Source: Sphingopyxis sp. LC81 (lineage in GTDB: Bacteria; Pseudomonadota; Alphaproteobacteria; Sphingomonadales; Sphingomonadaceae). From it: 64,000 bases of DNA. This document shows positions 30,761 to 53,558 of the stretch, piece after piece. Where the stretch lies: positions 310,001-374,000 of the forward strand of contig NZ_JNFD01000021.1 in the NCBI RefSeq assembly GCF_000756375.1. Direction: 5' to 3'. A program made the position numbers and the translations under genes. The notes beneath the pieces are model-generated. The model was not told the DNA's origin and did not search any database. It worked only from the letters and a program-made list of their open reading frames with translations. Each line of letters starts with the position of its first letter. The first letter of the stretch is position 1.

Positions 30761-30803
30761 CGAGCCTTGATCGTGAAGTTGTCAGACCTCTCTCGTCTTC
30801 GTC

Positions 30804-30867
30804 ATGCCGGACTTGATCCGGCATCCATCCGCCGCACCGCCCGATGGACCCCGAATCAAGTCCGGGG
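30804..30867. repeat. REP/BIME-like palindromic pair between accD and folC
   Basis: Unit one has an 8-bp stem (ATGCCGGA/TCCGGCAT, loop CTTGA) and unit two a 5-bp stem (CCCCG/CGGGG, loop AATCAAGTC). Their loops and flanks (CCGGACTTGATCCGG and CCGAATCAAGTCCGG) are inverted copies of one another. This is the widespread alphaproteobacterial GTCATGCCGGACTTGATCCG-type repeat. It sits inside an operon gap and may affect folC readthrough. Confidence 0.7.
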
Positions 30868-30900
30868 AGACGAAGTTAGAGACGTTTGGCCTAGAGCTAT

Positions 30901-31752
30901 CTAGGCCGCCTTCTCTGGCGCCAGATAACCGATCAGGCGGCCCAGCGTCTCGGGCAGCTCCTTACGGTGGACCACCATGTCGATCATCCCGTGATCGAGC
31001 AGATATTCGGCGCGCTGGAAGCCTTCGGGCAGTTTCTCGCGGATCGTATTCTCGATCACGCGCTGACCCGCGAAGCCGATCAATGCCTTGGGCTCGCTGA
31101 TCTGGATATCGCCGAGCATCGCATAGCTGGCGGTGACGCCGCCGGTCGTCGGGTCGGTGAGCAGCACGATATAGGGCAAGCCGGCGCGGCGCAGGCGCGC
31201 GAGCGCGACGGTGGCCCGGGGCATCTGCATCAGCGACAGCGTGCCTTCCTGCATGCGCGCGCCGCCCGCGGCGGTGATCGCGATATAGGGAACCCCGCGC
31301 CGGATCGCATCCTCGACTCCGGCGACGAACGCCTCGCCCACGGCGACGCCCATCGAGCCGCCCATGAAGGCGAAGTCCTGCACGCCGATCACCACACCCT
31401 GACCCGAGATGCGGCCAAACGCATTCTGATACGCGTCGCGGTCGCCGGTCTGCGCGCGCGCCGCCTTGATGCGGTCGACATATTTCTTGGTATCGCGGAA
31501 CTTCAGCGGATCCTCGGGCGCAGCTGGTGCGCTGATCAGTTCGTGGAGGCCGCCATCGAACAGCTGCGCGAACCGCTCGGTCGCACCGATGCGGTCGTGA
31601 TGGTCGCAGCGCGGGCAGACGTTCAGATTGTCTTCCCATTCCTTGACGAACACCATCTGCTGGCACTGGCGGCATTTGTGCCAGAGATTGTCGGCGGTAT
31701 CGCGTTTCGCCCCGAAGGGCAGCGCGTTGCGAACGCGGTCGAGCCAGCTCAT
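30901..31752 (-). CDS. accD: Acetyl-CoA carboxylase carboxyltransferase subunit beta
   Basis: This 283-aa protein has the N-terminal zinc ribbon, with cysteine pairs in [10 protein letters not shown] and VCPRCDHH (about residues 25-52). The crotonase-fold carboxyltransferase core follows: [20 protein letters not shown] (about 127-146), [15 protein letters not shown] and [16 protein letters not shown]. With AccA it transfers carboxyl groups from biotin to acetyl-CoA to make malonyl-CoA for fatty acid synthesis. Its ATG overlaps the TGA of trpA, so translation is coupled to the tryptophan genes; this trp-accD-folC order is common in alphaproteobacteria. Confidence 0.95.
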
Positions 31753-32543
31753 GCGGCGATCTCCTTTGCGCCGTGAATAGCATCGGCGAGCGAACGGGTG
31801 AAGGTCTCGACATAAGGCGCGGCGGCGTCGCCATGCTGCGCGATGATGTCGATGAAGGCCGATCCGACGACGACGCCGTCGGCGACCTTGGCGATCGGGG
31901 ACGCCTGTTCGGGGGTGCGGACGCCAAACCCGACGGCGACGGGAAGGTCGGTGGCGGCTTTGAGGCGTGCGACAGCTTCATCGATGCTCGCCTGCGCCGC
32001 TTGTTGCTGGCCGGTGATCCCGGCGACCGAGACATAATAGAGGAAACCGCCCGCGCCGTTCAGCACATCGGGCAGGCGCGCGGCGTCGGTCGTCGGTGTG
32101 GCGAGACGGATGAGGTCGACACCGGCGGCGCGGAGCGCGGGGCCGAGTTCGGCGTCCTCTTCCGACGGAATGTCAACGCAGATCACGCCGTCGACTCCCG
32201 CCTTCGCGCACTCGGCGGCGAACCATTCGGGTCCGCGGATCGTCATCGGATTGGCATAGCCCATCAGAACGAGGGGGGTGTCCGGATGGCGCCGACGAAA
32301 GGCGGCCGCGATAGCGAACAGGTCGGCGGTCGTTGTGCCCTTGGCGAGGCTGCGCAGGTTCGCGGCCTGGATCGCGGGGCCGTCGGCCATCGGGTCGGTG
32401 AAGGGCATGCCGAGTTCGATCACGTCCGCCCCACCTGCGACGAGCGCGTCGAGGTTCGCGGCGGTGTTGCCGTCCCCACCGGTAATGAAGGCGACGAGCG
32501 CGGGGCGCGGTTTGGCGAAGGTTGCGGCGAAGCGATCAGTCAT
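31749..32543 (-). CDS. trpA: Tryptophan synthase alpha subunit
   Basis: This 264-aa TIM-barrel protein has [14 protein letters not shown] (residues 13-26) and the catalytic glutamate and aspartate in [14 protein letters not shown] (about 42-55), followed by [27 protein letters not shown] and the phosphate-binding [10 protein letters not shown] and VVGSAFID. It cleaves indole-3-glycerol phosphate and channels indole to TrpB. Unlike the usual arrangement, a small membrane-protein gene lies between trpB and trpA and overlaps the trpA start by eight bases. Confidence 0.95.
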
Positions 32544-32715
32544 GACTCGACTCGTGACGTAGTTTGAACACGATCATGGCAATCTTGACGGCCAGCAAAA
32601 GGCCGATCACGCCGTAGAAGACTACGTCATTGGCTGCCCAGCCCATCCAGCCTACCATGTAGATCGCAACGGCGATGGGCAGCAGTGCCAGTCCGAATTT
32701 CTGGCGACTGTTCAT
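32536..32715 (-). CDS. Small two-helix membrane protein between trpB and trpA
   Basis: This 59-aa reading frame begins [20 protein letters not shown]. Two hydrophobic segments span about residues 8-28 and 31-50, followed by a basic stop (KLRHESSHD), so both termini are likely cytoplasmic. Its ATG overlaps the trpB TGA in an ATGA and its stop lies eight bases inside trpA, so it is embedded in a translationally coupled chain, which argues that it is real. Codons such as GGA, GTA, CTA and AAA make it look less G+C-biased than its neighbours. I recognise no family and no function; a link to tryptophan synthesis is not implied. Confidence 0.72.
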
Positions 32716-33923
32716 AGTTCCACCCCCAACGCATCGGCCACGGTGAAGATGTCCTTATCGCCGCGGCCCGAGCAGTTGACGATGATGATCTTGTCCTTGC
32801 CCAGCGTGGGCGCGATGCGTTCGGCGGCGGCGATCGCGTGCGCGCTTTCGAGCGCCGGGATGATGCCCTCGAGCCTGGTGAGCTTCTGGAAGCTCGCGAG
32901 CGCCTCGGCGTCGGTGACGGGCTCGTAGCGGACGCGGCCGATTTCGTGGAGCCAGCTATGTTCTGGGCCGATGCCCGGATAGTCGAGCCCTGCCGAAATG
33001 CTGTGCGCCTCGGTGATCTGGCCATCCTCGTCCTGCAGCAGATAGGTCTTGTTGCCGTGGAGGATGCCGGGGCGGCCGCCCGCGAGGCTGGCGGCGTGCT
33101 TCTTGTCGAGCCCTTCGCCCGCGGCTTCGACGCCGACGATCTCGACATCGGCGTCGTCGAGGAACGGATGGAACAGGCCGATCGCATTCGATCCGCCGCC
33201 GACGGGCGCGATCAGCATATCCGGGAGCCGGCCTTCGGCTTCGAGTATCTGTTCGCGCGCTTCGTCGCCGATCACCGACTGGAAATCGCGGACGAGCTCG
33301 GGATAGGGGTGCGGCCCCGCGACGGTGCCGATGATGTAGAAGGTGTCGTGGACGTTCGCGACCCAGTGGCGCAGTGCCTCGTTCATCGCGTCCTTGAGCG
33401 TCTTGGCCCCGCTCTCGACCGCGACGACTTCGGCGCCGAGCAGCTTCATGCGGAAGACGTTCGGCTGTTGCCGCGCGACGTCGACCGCGCCCATGAAGAT
33501 GGTGCAGGGCAGGCCGAACAGCGCCGCGACAGTTGCGGTTGCGACGCCGTGCTGGCCGGCGCCGGTTTCGGCGATGATCTTGGTCTTGCCCATCCGCTTG
33601 GCGAGCAGGATCTGGCCGATGCAATTGTTGATCTTGTGCGCGCCGGTGTGGTTCAGATCCTCGCGCTTCAGGTAAATTTTCGCGCCGCTGAGATGTTCGG
33701 TCAGCCGCTCGGCGAACCACAGCGGGCTCGGACGACCGACATAATGTTCGAGCAGATAGTCGAACTCGGCCTTGAACGCCGGGTCGGCCTGCGCGGCGCG
33801 ATAGTGACGCTCAAGATCGAGGATCAACGGCATCAGCGTTTCGGCGACATAGCGGCCGCCGAACTGGCCGAAATGGCCGCGCGCGTCGGGTCCGGTGCGG
33901 AGGCTGTTGGGTAAGTCGGTCAT
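32712..33923 (-). CDS. trpB: Tryptophan synthase beta subunit
   Basis: This 403-aa PLP enzyme begins with [19 protein letters not shown]. The Schiff-base lysine is in [18 protein letters not shown] (about residue 95), the catalytic glutamate in [16 protein letters not shown] (about 117), and the phosphate cup [13 protein letters not shown] near 240. It condenses indole with serine to make tryptophan. Its ATG overlaps the TGA of trpF, and its TGA overlaps the ATG of the 59-aa membrane protein. Confidence 0.96.
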
Positions 33924-34552
33924 CGACCCGCCGCTTTAAGGAAAGCCGCGATCTTGTCCACATCCTTGACGCCCGGCGCGCTTTCGACGCCCGACGAAAC
34001 ATCGACCAGCGGCGCCCCGGTCGCGGCGATCGCTTCGGCGACATTTTCGGGGGTGAGGCCGCCCGCGATGCCCCAGTCGATGCTGTGGCGATGGTTTTTG
34101 AGCAGCGACCAGTCGAAACGCGTGCCGGTGCCGCCGGGCATCGCGGCGGCGGGGGCGTCGAACAGGATGCGGTCGGCGACGCCGTGATATTTCTGCATCC
34201 GCACGAGTGTGTCGGCGTCCTTCAGACCGACGGCCTTCCAGACTTCCGCCGGCGTCAGCCGCTTCACGGCACCCAGCCATTCGGGTGTTTCGGTGCCATG
34301 GAACTGGATGATGTCGGGGCGCACCATGCCGAGCGCGTCCCCGGTGAGCTGCTGCGGCGCGTTGACCAACAGCAACGCGACCTTGACGTTGGCCGCGCCT
34401 GCGCGCTTGCGCAGCTCGGCCGCGGTCTTGAGGTCGACATAGCGCGGGCTCGGCTCATAGTGATTGAGGCCGATATGCGTCGCGCCGTGACGGATGGCGG
34501 CATCGACCTCTTCGATCGTCTTGAGGCCGCAGATTTTGACGAGTGGGGGCAT
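33920..34552 (-). CDS. trpF: Phosphoribosylanthranilate isomerase
   Basis: This 210-aa TIM-barrel protein opens with [18 protein letters not shown], in which the cysteine of KICG is the general base, and ends with [20 protein letters not shown], the phosphate-binding strand with the usual VDVSSGVE motif. The general acid aspartate is in ILFDAPAA (about residue 128). It isomerises PRA to CdRP in tryptophan synthesis. It is coupled to trpB by an ATGA. A repeat-bearing 115-bp gap separates it from pyrF upstream. Confidence 0.93.
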
Positions 34553-50740: not shown

Positions 50741-51787
50741 TTGAAAATCCTGCTGCTGGCTGGCGATGGTATCGGTCCGGAAATCATGGTGGAGGCCGAG
50801 AAGGTCCTAACCGCGCTCGCATTACCGGTGACGCTCGACCGCGCGCTCGTCGGCGGCGCAGCGTATGAAGCGACTGGCCACCCGCTGCCCCCCGAAACGC
50901 TGGCGAAGGCGAAAGCCGCCGATGCGCTCCTGTTCGGTGCCGTCGGCGATCCGCGCTTCGACAATGTCGAACGCCATTTGCGTCCCGAGCAGGCGATCCT
51001 CGGCTTGCGCGCCGAACTCGGCCTGTTCGCCAATTTGCGTCCCGCCAAGCTGTTCGCGGGACTCGAAGACAGCTCGGCGCTCCGTCCCGAAGTGGCGTCG
51101 GCGATCGACCTGCTGATCGTCCGCGAACTCAACGGCGACGTCTATTTCGGCGAAAAGGGCACGCGCACGACCGCGGATGGGCAGCGCGAAGGCTATGACG
51201 TCATGTCGTACAGCGAAAGCGAAGTGCGGCGCATCGCGCATGTCGCCTTCCGCGCGGCGCAGGGTCGTCAAAAGCGGCTGTGTTCGGTCGACAAGGCGAA
51301 TGTACTCGAAACCTCGCAGCTCTGGCGCGACGTCGTGATCGAGGTCGCAGCCGATTACCCCGATGTGGCGCTGACCCACATGTATGTCGACAACGCCGCG
51401 ATGCAGCTGGTGCGCAATCCGGGCCAGTTCGACGTCGTCGTCACCGGCAACCTCTTTGGCGATATCCTTTCCGATCAGGCGTCGATGTGCGTCGGGTCGA
51501 TCGGACTTCTGGCGTCGGCTTCGCTCAGCGACGGCAAGCTGGGATTGTACGAACCGATCCACGGCAGCGCGCCCGATATCGCGGGCAAGGGCGTTGCCAA
51601 TCCCTTGGCGATGATACTGTCGCTCGCGATGCTGCTGCGCCATTCGGGCGGCGACGAGGCAAGCGCGGCGCGGATCGAGGCGGCAGTGGCCAAGGTGCTG
51701 GCGGACGGGTGCCGCGGTGCGGATCTGGGGGGCAATATGGGAACGGCGGCATTGGGCGATGCGGTCGTGGCGGCGCTTGGTCGGTGA
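50741..51787 (+). CDS. leuB: 3-isopropylmalate dehydrogenase
   Basis: This 348-aa enzyme starts at a TTG with GAAAGGG seven bases upstream. [20 protein letters not shown] opens the decarboxylating dehydrogenase fold. [20 protein letters not shown] holds the substrate arginines, and [20 protein letters not shown] (about residues 229-248) carries the metal-binding aspartates. [20 protein letters not shown] (about 272-291) matches the IPMDH/ICDH nucleotide site. It makes the third intermediate of leucine synthesis. A GTGA overlap couples it to the GNAT gene. Confidence 0.95.
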
Positions 51788-52353
51788 CCGAGCTTCGCGG
51801 CGAACATCTACTGCTCCGTCCTTTCGAGCCGGACGACGCACCGGCGCTCGCTGCGATCGCGGGACAGCGTGCGATCGCCGACACGATGATCTCGGTTGCC
51901 CATCCTTTTGACGTCGACATGGCGTACGCTTGGATTGAACAACTCGGCGCAAATGATCGACGCCAATCTTTTGCCGTTGTCGCGGACGGCTCGCTCGTGG
52001 GCTATGCCGGCTTGCACGATATCGACCATGAGCATGGACTTGCTGAAATCAGCTTTTGGACCGATCCTGCATGCCAGGGGCGCGGCTTGGCCGCCCAGGC
52101 TGCGCAATTATTGCTCGACCACGCATTCGGCGGACTGGGCCTGAACCGGGTGCAGGCCTTTCACATGACGCGCAATCCCGCATCCGGGCGACTGTTGGCG
52201 CGGTTAGGGTTTAGTGAGGAAGGTGTGATGCGCCAGCGTGTGCGCAAGTGGGATCGGTTCGAGGACGTAGTAATCTGGGCATTGCTGGCAGACGACCCGC
52301 GCGGTTCGAACGCCTTGCAACCCAAGGATGGAGCAGGCAGGGCGAGCGAATGA
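51784..52353 (+). CDS. GNAT family N-acetyltransferase
   Basis: This 189-aa protein starts with a GTG that overlaps the leuB stop. [20 protein letters not shown] and the acetyl-CoA loop [20 protein letters not shown] (about residues 98-117), then [20 protein letters not shown] and [20 protein letters not shown], are the RimJ/RimL type of GNAT (Acetyltransf_3). A protein or small-molecule amine is the likely substrate. It is coupled by ATGA to metZ. The C-terminal 20 residues are unstructured. Confidence 0.87.
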
Positions 52354-53558
52354 AGAAGACAACGGGTTTCGATCGTAGCAAGACACGTAACTGGCACCCC
52401 GCGACGCAGGCGGTGCGCGGCGGGACGTGGCGCAGTGAGCATGGCGAGACGTCGGAAGCGCTCTTCCTGACCTCGGGCTACACCTACGACAGCGCCGAGG
52501 AAGTCGCGGCGCGCTTTGCCGGCGAAGAACAGGGCATGACCTATTCGCGCCTCCAGAACCCGACCGTTTCGATGCTCGAAGAACGCATCGCGTTGATGGA
52601 AGGCGCCGAAGCGTGCCGCACGCAAGCGACCGGGATGGCCGCGATGACGACCGCCTTGCTCTGCCAGCTCTCGGCGGGCGACCATATCGTCGCGGCAAAG
52701 GCCGCCTTCGGGTCGTGCCGCTGGCTCGTCGACCATCTCTGCCCGCGCTTCGGCATCGAGACGACGGTCGTCGACGGCCGCGACAATGACGCGTGGGAAA
52801 AGGCGATCAAGCCGAACACGAAAGTCTTTTTCTTCGAAACCCCCGCCAACCCGACGATGGACATCGTCGACATGAAGCATGTGTGCGGCCTCGCGAAGGC
52901 GCATGGCATCACGACCGTGGTCGACAATGCCTTTGCGACCGCGGTGCTCCAGCGCCCGATGGATTTCGGCGCCGATGTCGTCGCTTATTCGGCGACCAAG
53001 CTCATGGAAGGGCAGGGCCGCGTCCTCGCCGGTGCGGTGTGCGGAACCGAGAAATTCATCAACGACGTGCTGCTGCCGTTCCAGCGCAACACGGGGCCGA
53101 ACCTGTCGCCGTTCAATGCGTGGGTGGTGCTCAAAGGCCTCGAGACGCTCGATCTGCGCGCGCGGCGCCAGTCGGAAAATGCGCTTGCGGTCGGCAAGGC
53201 GATCGAGGGCCGCGTTGCACGCATGCTCCATCCGGGGCTGGCCAGCCATCCGCAGCATAATCTGGCGATGAGCCAATCGAGCGCGTGCGGGCCGATCTTT
53301 TCCTTCGTGCTCGATGGCGGCCGCGAACAGGCGATGGCGTTCCTCAACGCGCTCGAACTCGTCGACATCAGCAACAATATCGGCGATTCGCGCAGCCTCT
53401 GTTGCCACCCCTGGTCGACGACGCATTATGGTGTGAGCGAAGAAGCCCGTATCGACATGGGCGTCGTCGAGGGTATGCTGCGCATCAATATCGGCCTCGA
53501 AGATCCGCGCGACGTGATCGCCGATCTGGACCAGGCATTGACCAAGGTGGGGCTTTGA
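52350..53558 (+). CDS. metZ: O-succinylhomoserine sulfhydrylase
   Basis: This 402-aa protein of the Cys/Met-metabolism PLP family has ATQAVRGGTWRSEHGETSEA near the N-terminus, YSRLQNPTVSMLEERIA (about residues 65-81), GMAAMTTALLCQLSAGDHIV, and the PLP lysine in DVVAYSATKLMEGQGR (about residue 218). The ending DISNNIGDSRSLCCHPWSTT and GMLRINIGLED is typical of MetZ. It makes homocysteine directly from O-succinylhomoserine and sulfide, by-passing cystathionine. Cystathionine gamma-synthase is the nearest alternative. It fits the sulfur genes elsewhere in the window. Confidence 0.9.
   Translation: MKKTTGFDRSKTRNWHPATQAVRGGTWRSEHGETSEALFLTSGYTYDSAEEVAARFAGEEQGMTYSRLQNPTVSMLEERIALMEGAEACRTQATGMAAMTTALLCQLSAGDHIVAAKAAFGSCRWLVDHLCPRFGIETTVVDGRDNDAWEKAIKPNTKVFFFETPANPTMDIVDMKHVCGLAKAHGITTVVDNAFATAVLQRPMDFGADVVAYSATKLMEGQGRVLAGAVCGTEKFINDVLLPFQRNTGPNLSPFNAWVVLKGLETLDLRARRQSENALAVGKAIEGRVARMLHPGLASHPQHNLAMSQSSACGPIFSFVLDGGREQAMAFLNALELVDISNNIGDSRSLCCHPWSTTHYGVSEEARIDMGVVEGMLRINIGLEDPRDVIADLDQALTKVGL

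Follow-up and report, generated by a model that had tools for sequence, protein, structure and literature searches.

A variable insertion site at the trpB-trpA stop/start overlap of Sphingomonadaceae and the predicted small membrane-protein gene that occupies it in Sphingopyxis sp. LC81

Background

In a stretch of 64,000 nucleotides (nt) of Sphingopyxis sp. LC81 (contig NZ_JNFD01000021.1, positions 310,001 to 374,000; hereafter the window), an open reading frame (ORF) of 59 amino acids (aa) lies between the tryptophan synthase genes trpB and trpA. The closest precedent for such an arrangement is formed by the mycobacterial interspersed repetitive units (MIRUs; Supply et al. 1997). As described in PMC12548453, these units carry their own ORF, which couples at a spacing of -4 to the gene at the insertion site and so likely minimises the impact on that gene. 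In E. coli, the stop-start overlap of trpB and trpA is required for efficient reinitiation at trpA (Das and Yanofsky 1989, as cited in PMC10666635 and PMC12548453), and in six other gene pairs coupling was almost abolished by gaps of approximately 20 nt (PMC10666635). Genes of unknown function between trpB and trpA have been mentioned for one Sargasso contig, Flavobacterium and Burkholderia, with the suggestion that they may be morons (PMC2395257).

As in MIRUs, the ORF of an insert at the locus studied here is coupled at an existing start codon; this holds for 109 of the 146 inserts that we found between trpB and trpA, and 100 of these 109 have TGA on either side. The ORF in the window, however, overlaps trpA by 8 nt and not by the 4 nt of the MIRU account. 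MIRUs are presented there as short dispersed repeats, whereas the inserts occupy one place, fall into 58 sequence groups and encode many conserved membrane proteins, and no mobile mechanism was seen. Nor do classes A, B and E have many genomic copies: the window ORF (class A of the junction ORFs) is single copy in its own genome, and classes B and E gave one match per genome in 80 Sphingopyxis genomes, all between trpB and trpA. The stop/start overlaps are like those of E. coli trpB-trpA as cited above (-4 and -8 at the two ends of the window ORF), but in the present case a complete ORF interrupts the overlap, and both of its ends still overlap the neighbouring gene. The genes mentioned in PMC2395257 likewise lie between trpB and trpA and have no known function; they appear there as single cases without an analysis of coupling, whereas in the present study the slot was hypervariable across a family and coupling was measured. 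No earlier description of a trpB-trpA slot in Sphingomonadaceae was found in the titles and abstract beginnings of the open-licence papers listed.

Results

As judged from the compared sequences, the trpB-trpA site itself, rather than the protein encoded there in the window, is the discovery. An earlier note on this DNA had called a membrane protein between trpB and trpA odd. The conserved oddity is the site and not the protein.

The junctions came from three sources: Sphingopyxis genomes, 80 named loci whose titles mostly place them in Sphingomonadales, and 130 stretches of family genomes. The last were drawn from the top scorers among the 380 family genomes with TrpA (30 loci and 100 further ones). 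At least 60 nt between trpB and trpA was counted as an insert. Sphingopyxis duplicates (L131, L136, L194, L211-L217 and L222), seven identical junctions (L132, L167, L225, L230, L273, L324 and L329) and stretches in which trpB was not found (L241, L251, L316, L322 and L338) were dropped. The junctions of L131 and L194, which lie on contigs named Sphingopyxis, recur in G344 and G330, respectively. No junction was obtained for L160, L178 and L201 or, among the 80 Sphingopyxis genomes, for G342, G358 and G367. Also left out were L120-L130, second trpB copies (75-79% identical) without trpA in the stretch; such copies were observed in 11 Sphingopyxis genomes, and 12 genomes list a second trpB match.

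Among the resulting 261 distinct junctions, 146 contained an insert and 100 a plain overlap. In Sphingopyxis (n = 77) 27 junctions were plain, 1 was short and 49 had an insert; the corresponding numbers for the other junctions (n = 184, a few of them titled outside Sphingomonadales) were 73, 14 and 97. Single linkage at 1e-4 divided the 146 inserts into 58 groups, the largest of which (45 inserts) joined DUF559 and repeat-bearing inserts. Their coupled ORFs, 111 in number (109 once identical junctions were removed), formed 62 protein clusters. Among them were two-helix proteins of approximately 60 aa and multi-helix proteins of approximately 170 aa, besides a cupin, DUF6980 and a DUF559 gene; repeat-derived sequence was also represented. 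Genomes with a TrpB 98.5% identical to that of the window (L044-L046) had unrelated inserts, one of them encoding a DUF6980 protein. On a trpB tree of 75 rows the state of the insert changed at least 41 times among 18 states, a number that has no shuffled baseline and is rough because 32 of the 71 inner branches of the tree are open. Outside the family, the 27 best-scoring alphaproteobacterial loci showed a trpB-trpA gap of -4 to 73 nt in the 24 that could be measured; in the other three the start was unrecognised and approximately 70-110 nt separated the trpB and trpA alignments.

Comparison of the junctions showed that the inserts replace the plain overlap, that most of the predicted ORFs start on the trpB stop and end on the trpA start, and that the content is exchangeable. 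An ORF was scored as coupled when it started -12 to +20 nt from the trpB stop and ended -10 to +30 nt from the trpA start. The 109 coupled inserts compare with 24.6 expected from dinucleotide shuffles. For inserts of 60-260 nt the count was 92 of 94 (23.7 expected), with a gap length of 1 mod 3 in 77 of these 94, and by group it was 53.5 of 58 (sum of within-group means; 10.3 expected). In Sphingopyxis, TrpA had the N-terminus xTRF at 19 of the 27 plain junctions and at 39 of the 49 with an insert. DUF559 inserts, 25 of the 146 (for example L055, L059, L070, L088, L095 and L102), were all in trp orientation, and 22 of them stop exactly 4 nt into trpA (ATGA). In several loci the DUF559 genes are flanked by mirrored CCCTCTCCCC repeats. 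The frames of the repeat-derived classes I and J were open and coupled in 8/8 Sphingopyxis genomes carrying them. Because repeat-derived inserts couple too, coupling and openness of an ORF are alone no proof that its protein matters.

Two observations concern the start of trpA. In L083 no stop codon closes the frame of the insert, which reads on into trpA and looks like an N-terminal extension acquired by TrpA. In addition, the trpA start codon was GTG in 67 of 100 plain junctions and ATG in 95 of 109 coupled inserts, as if the start were stronger where an insert is present; the start finder prefers ATG, which may contribute.

Neighbouring junctions were used as controls. Between trpA and accD, an insert of at least 60 nt was present in 1/74 Sphingopyxis genomes and 4/65 other named genomes. 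The spacing of lapA and pyrF, just upstream in the window, was -4 throughout the 29 loci that could be measured among the 30 best of 77 matches. The trpF-trpB junction contained inserts in 7/31 Sphingopyxis and 33/72 other named genomes; 4 of the 28 inserts of 60-160 nt were coupled, versus 6.0 expected (mononucleotide shuffle). The trpF-trpB inserts of approximately 100 nt (L054, L055, L061, L066, L068, L069 and L072, with named relatives), several of which have the core ACGATGGCGCTGATCGC in common, are possibly a regulatory element.

Pairing with the anti-Shine-Dalgarno (anti-SD) sequence as it is generally known was calculated as duplex energy for 268 junctions, that is, before the seven identical ones were removed. 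In plain junctions the region before trpA, which lies in the trpB tail, had a mean of -9.57 kcal/mol (n = 104; shuffled -8.06). In insert-bearing junctions (n = 148) the region of the trpB tail before the ORF of the insert had a mean of -9.73 kcal/mol (shuffled -8.87), and the region before trpA one of -5.50 kcal/mol (shuffled -4.96; window -2.7).

The ratio of nonsynonymous to synonymous substitution rates (dN/dS) was 0.02-0.22 for class B, 0.07-0.10 for class C, 0.14 for class D, 0.18 for DUF6980 and 0.35 for class A. Nine pairs from the repeat-derived classes I and J, covering 7 of their 8 members (3 of 4 in class I), gave 0.43-1.42. By these ratios classes B, C, D and DUF6980 are constrained as proteins, and class E (see Discussion) is looser. 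Since unconstrained repeat-derived frames stay open while several classes show protein constraint, two layers seem to act: openness, in most inserts, and protein function, in many.

A hydrophobic segment was predicted in 80 of the 109 coupled ORFs; among 919 coupled ORFs obtained by mononucleotide shuffling of the inserts the share was 10.7%, and on that figure base composition was dropped as the mere cause of the hydrophobicity. Profile searches covered 80 Sphingopyxis and 199 family genomes for class B, 80 Sphingopyxis genomes for class E and 199 family genomes for class K (represented by L086 and L168). At E <= 0.001 all 17 of 17 matches lay between trpB and trpA, so that these classes seem unlike general mobile genes. 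An origin of the hairpins as general mobile genes was dropped, as the searched samples contained no off-site copy that belonged to class A, B, E or K.

In another reading, the slot could house selfish or defensive cargo (small membrane proteins that act in phage exclusion or bacteriocin immunity or are toxin-like) that is exchanged between strains and made harmless by coupling. The fast turnover among close relatives, counted on a weak tree, and the strong bias toward small membrane proteins are both in its favour. However, PADLOC gave no match at E <= 0.01 among 7 junction proteins (the best was class D to the CARF_2M model, E 0.014) and PHROGs gave none at E <= 0.02 among 8. Class A relatives were not found in phage, plasmid or viral-contig collections, and class B relatives were not found in plasmids. 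Outside the trpB-trpA junction, the samples above yielded no member of class B, E or K at E <= 0.001. We regard such cargo as possible but doubtful.

Alternatively, all junction proteins could be orthologues, forms of a single membrane protein so divergent that its fold and topology but not its sequence were kept, with one conserved role that is possibly tied to tryptophan synthase, indole or tryptophan. Many clusters have a common size and two-helix plan, the profile matches of classes B, E and K were confined to trpBA, and among 38 hairpin-sized cluster representatives 30 ordered pairs matched at E <= 0.01, versus a block-shuffled mean of 7.4 (maximum 14). The excess was gone at E <= 0.001 (1 pair versus 0.8), and the block shuffle does not preserve all biases of membrane proteins. 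A very divergent common origin of the hairpins is therefore possible. A single orthologue is nevertheless unlikely, given that 27/77 Sphingopyxis junctions are plain and that inserts are unrelated, DUF6980 included, at 98.5% TrpB identity.

In the window, the gene order on the minus strand is trpF, trpB, the 59-aa ORF, trpA and accD, each start sitting on the preceding stop (Table 1). The TGA of the ORF is 8 nt inside trpA, the ATG of which begins at 32543. On re-reading, the ATGA link to trpB and the 8-nt overlap with trpA that the earlier note had described were correct, as were its coordinates and strand; the -4 and -8 overlaps bear out the tight coupling on both sides. Codon choice less biased toward G + C than in trpB and trpA, also described there, agrees with the G + C content (0.544) and that of third codon positions (0.729) in the ORF, versus 0.654 and 0.859 in trpB and 0.681 and 0.807 in trpA.

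Table 1. Positions of the 59-aa ORF, its overlaps and its neighbours in the window
Feature	Position	Strand	Evidence or remark
59-aa ORF of class A, predicted to encode a membrane protein that has two hydrophobic stretches	32536..32715	minus	one relative, at the trpB-trpA junction of G344
ATGA, shared by the ORF start codon and the trpB stop	32712..32715	minus	
8-nt overlap ATGACTGA, stop of the ORF and start codon of trpA	32536..32543	minus	
GGGGGTGG in the trpB tail, Shine-Dalgarno-like, 4 nt ahead of the ATG of the ORF	32720..32727	minus	sequence
Hydrophobic stretch 1, residues 7-25	32641..32697	minus	
Hydrophobic stretch 2, residues 31-49	32569..32625	minus	
trpB	32712..33923	minus	TIGR00263
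trpA	31749..32543	minus	TIGR00262; weak anti-SD pairing upstream, -2.7 kcal/mol
trpF, control junction with trpB (-4 here)	33920..34552	minus	name by sequence and position only
accD, control junction with trpA (-4 here)	30901..31752	minus	name by sequence and position only

The protein had been described as an unrecognised small membrane protein, and this description held. Two Kyte-Doolittle windows of at least 1.6 start at residues 7 and 31, and no Pfam family scored above its gathering cut-off. The weak likeness of the two-helix region to DUF4191 (18.2 bits, cut-off 30), DUF4229 (16.5, 27) and DUF6343 (13.9, 27.2) stayed far below the curated values. NCBIfam, PHROG and PADLOC gave 0 families for the protein at E <= 1, 0.1 and 0.1, respectively, and a PDB sequence search returned only membrane look-alikes (E >= 0.3). 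AlphaFold2, with an alignment of 2 sequences, predicted a helix from residue 3 to 58 (mean predicted local distance difference test score 89, predicted template modelling score 0.45); this near-continuous helix is compatible with a hairpin, the turn of which is not seen in the model.

Strong matches to the protein in the 80 Sphingopyxis genomes were limited to the window genome itself (G000) and G344. The copy in G344 is 86% identical, lies at the same trpB-trpA junction and has no gap or stop relative to the window ORF (dN 0.073, dS 0.211, ratio 0.35; Fisher p 0.029, from rounded counts). The earlier note had looked to stops or frameshifts in related species as evidence against a gene; no broken copy was seen, with just one relative to judge by. 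In the next seven Sphingopyxis genomes it is one and the same match, 37% identical (E 0.006-0.008) and part of a 214-aa frame. Weak matches in 12 further genomes (E 2.7e-4 to 0.0099, at most 23.4 bits), which lay in frames of 133-767 aa or had internal stops, were set aside as membrane look-alikes, and matches at E <= 1, present in 31 of the 80 genomes, were read in the same way apart from G000 and G344. A clear relative was thus not found in 78 of the 79 other Sphingopyxis genomes, and the 75 of those 78 with a readable junction had a plain one, or other ORFs or repeats there. By these searches the window protein is an orphan, for which a single clear relative turned up.

The tie to tryptophan synthase that the earlier note had suggested for this particular protein is unsupported, as a clear relative is missing from 78/79 other Sphingopyxis genomes. 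The same distribution bears on whether TrpAB of this species has a dedicated partner or anchor in the protein. Its position and coupling should indeed give similar rates of synthesis, but 79/80 genomes of the genus have TrpB, which renders a dedicated partner very unlikely.

Coupling of the window ORF is unremarkable by itself, because 27-28% of the dinucleotide shuffles of its insert also yield an ORF meeting the coupling rule. Support for coding comes from the dN/dS of its one relative together with the population of junctions. A non-coding insert in which the ORF is open by chance, as these shuffles and the single relative might allow, is highly improbable in view of the dN/dS of 0.35 without gap or stop versus G344, the hydrophobic pattern and the coupling of 92/94 short inserts.

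Elsewhere in the window, a palindromic repeat of the CATGCCGGACTTGATCCGGCATCC type occupies 30799-30875, between accD and folC, and by eye resembles the repeats of class I trpBA inserts. At 51784-53558 a GNAT-like gene has a 4-nt overlap with a cystathionine-lyase-like gene (names by sequence only). This GNAT-metC pair was set aside as a second control junction, since 29 of its 30 loci were not measurable.

Discussion

The frame in the window is probably a translated gene for a small membrane protein, placed in a relay slot at the trpB-trpA stop/start overlap. Ribosomes finishing trpB would restart on the ORF of the insert by way of the purine-rich trpB tail and, once that ORF is finished, on trpA; in the window, trpA itself offers little Shine-Dalgarno sequence. 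Regardless of what an insert encodes, its open frame would be kept, as TrpA output would fall with any stop or frameshift. Since the overlap is reported to be needed in E. coli, and coupling in other pairs to be nearly lost at approximately 20 nt, an insert should bring its own relay or cost TrpA. Separately, most of the cargo consists of predicted small membrane proteins, with several classes under purifying selection at the protein level.

Several results weigh against this reading. Much of the anti-SD strength is base composition, as the shuffled means of -8.06, -8.87 and -4.96 kcal/mol indicate. A trpA pairing of -5 kcal/mol or better is kept in a fraction of 0.50 of the inserts (0.47 shuffled), and the ends of inserts pair better than their interiors (-5.50 versus -3.27 kcal/mol); with half of the inserts keeping this pairing and ends surpassing interiors, dependence on the relay need not be total. 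A start near trpB is absent in 24/25 DUF559 inserts, and 13 of the 121 other inserts are without a coupled ORF (among them L064, L304 and L083). The TrpA N-terminus in the window, MTDR, is an exception to xTRF. The dN/dS is 0.24-0.72 in class E (two pairs undefined) and 0.83 in class M, and class A consists of two sequences only. Finally, the shuffle test cannot part selection for a relay from selection for the protein combined with tight spacing.

Tentatively, the relay slot may be taken one step further, in that the overlap could act as a protected seat, a form of genetic hostage-taking. The inserted ORF would be the main path of ribosomes to trpA, mutations that break it would break tryptophan synthase as well and be purged, and only clean excision or a swap for another open ORF would be tolerated; hydrophobic cargo may also hold the translating trpBA message at the membrane.

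The trpB-trpA junction of Sphingomonadaceae amounts to a natural, replicated experiment in translational coupling, in which a classic coupled pair was opened many times within one family, with a ribosome path retained across almost all of the short inserts observed. It hints at how orphan small membrane proteins may gain and keep a place in a core operon, and it offers dozens of candidates for functional study.
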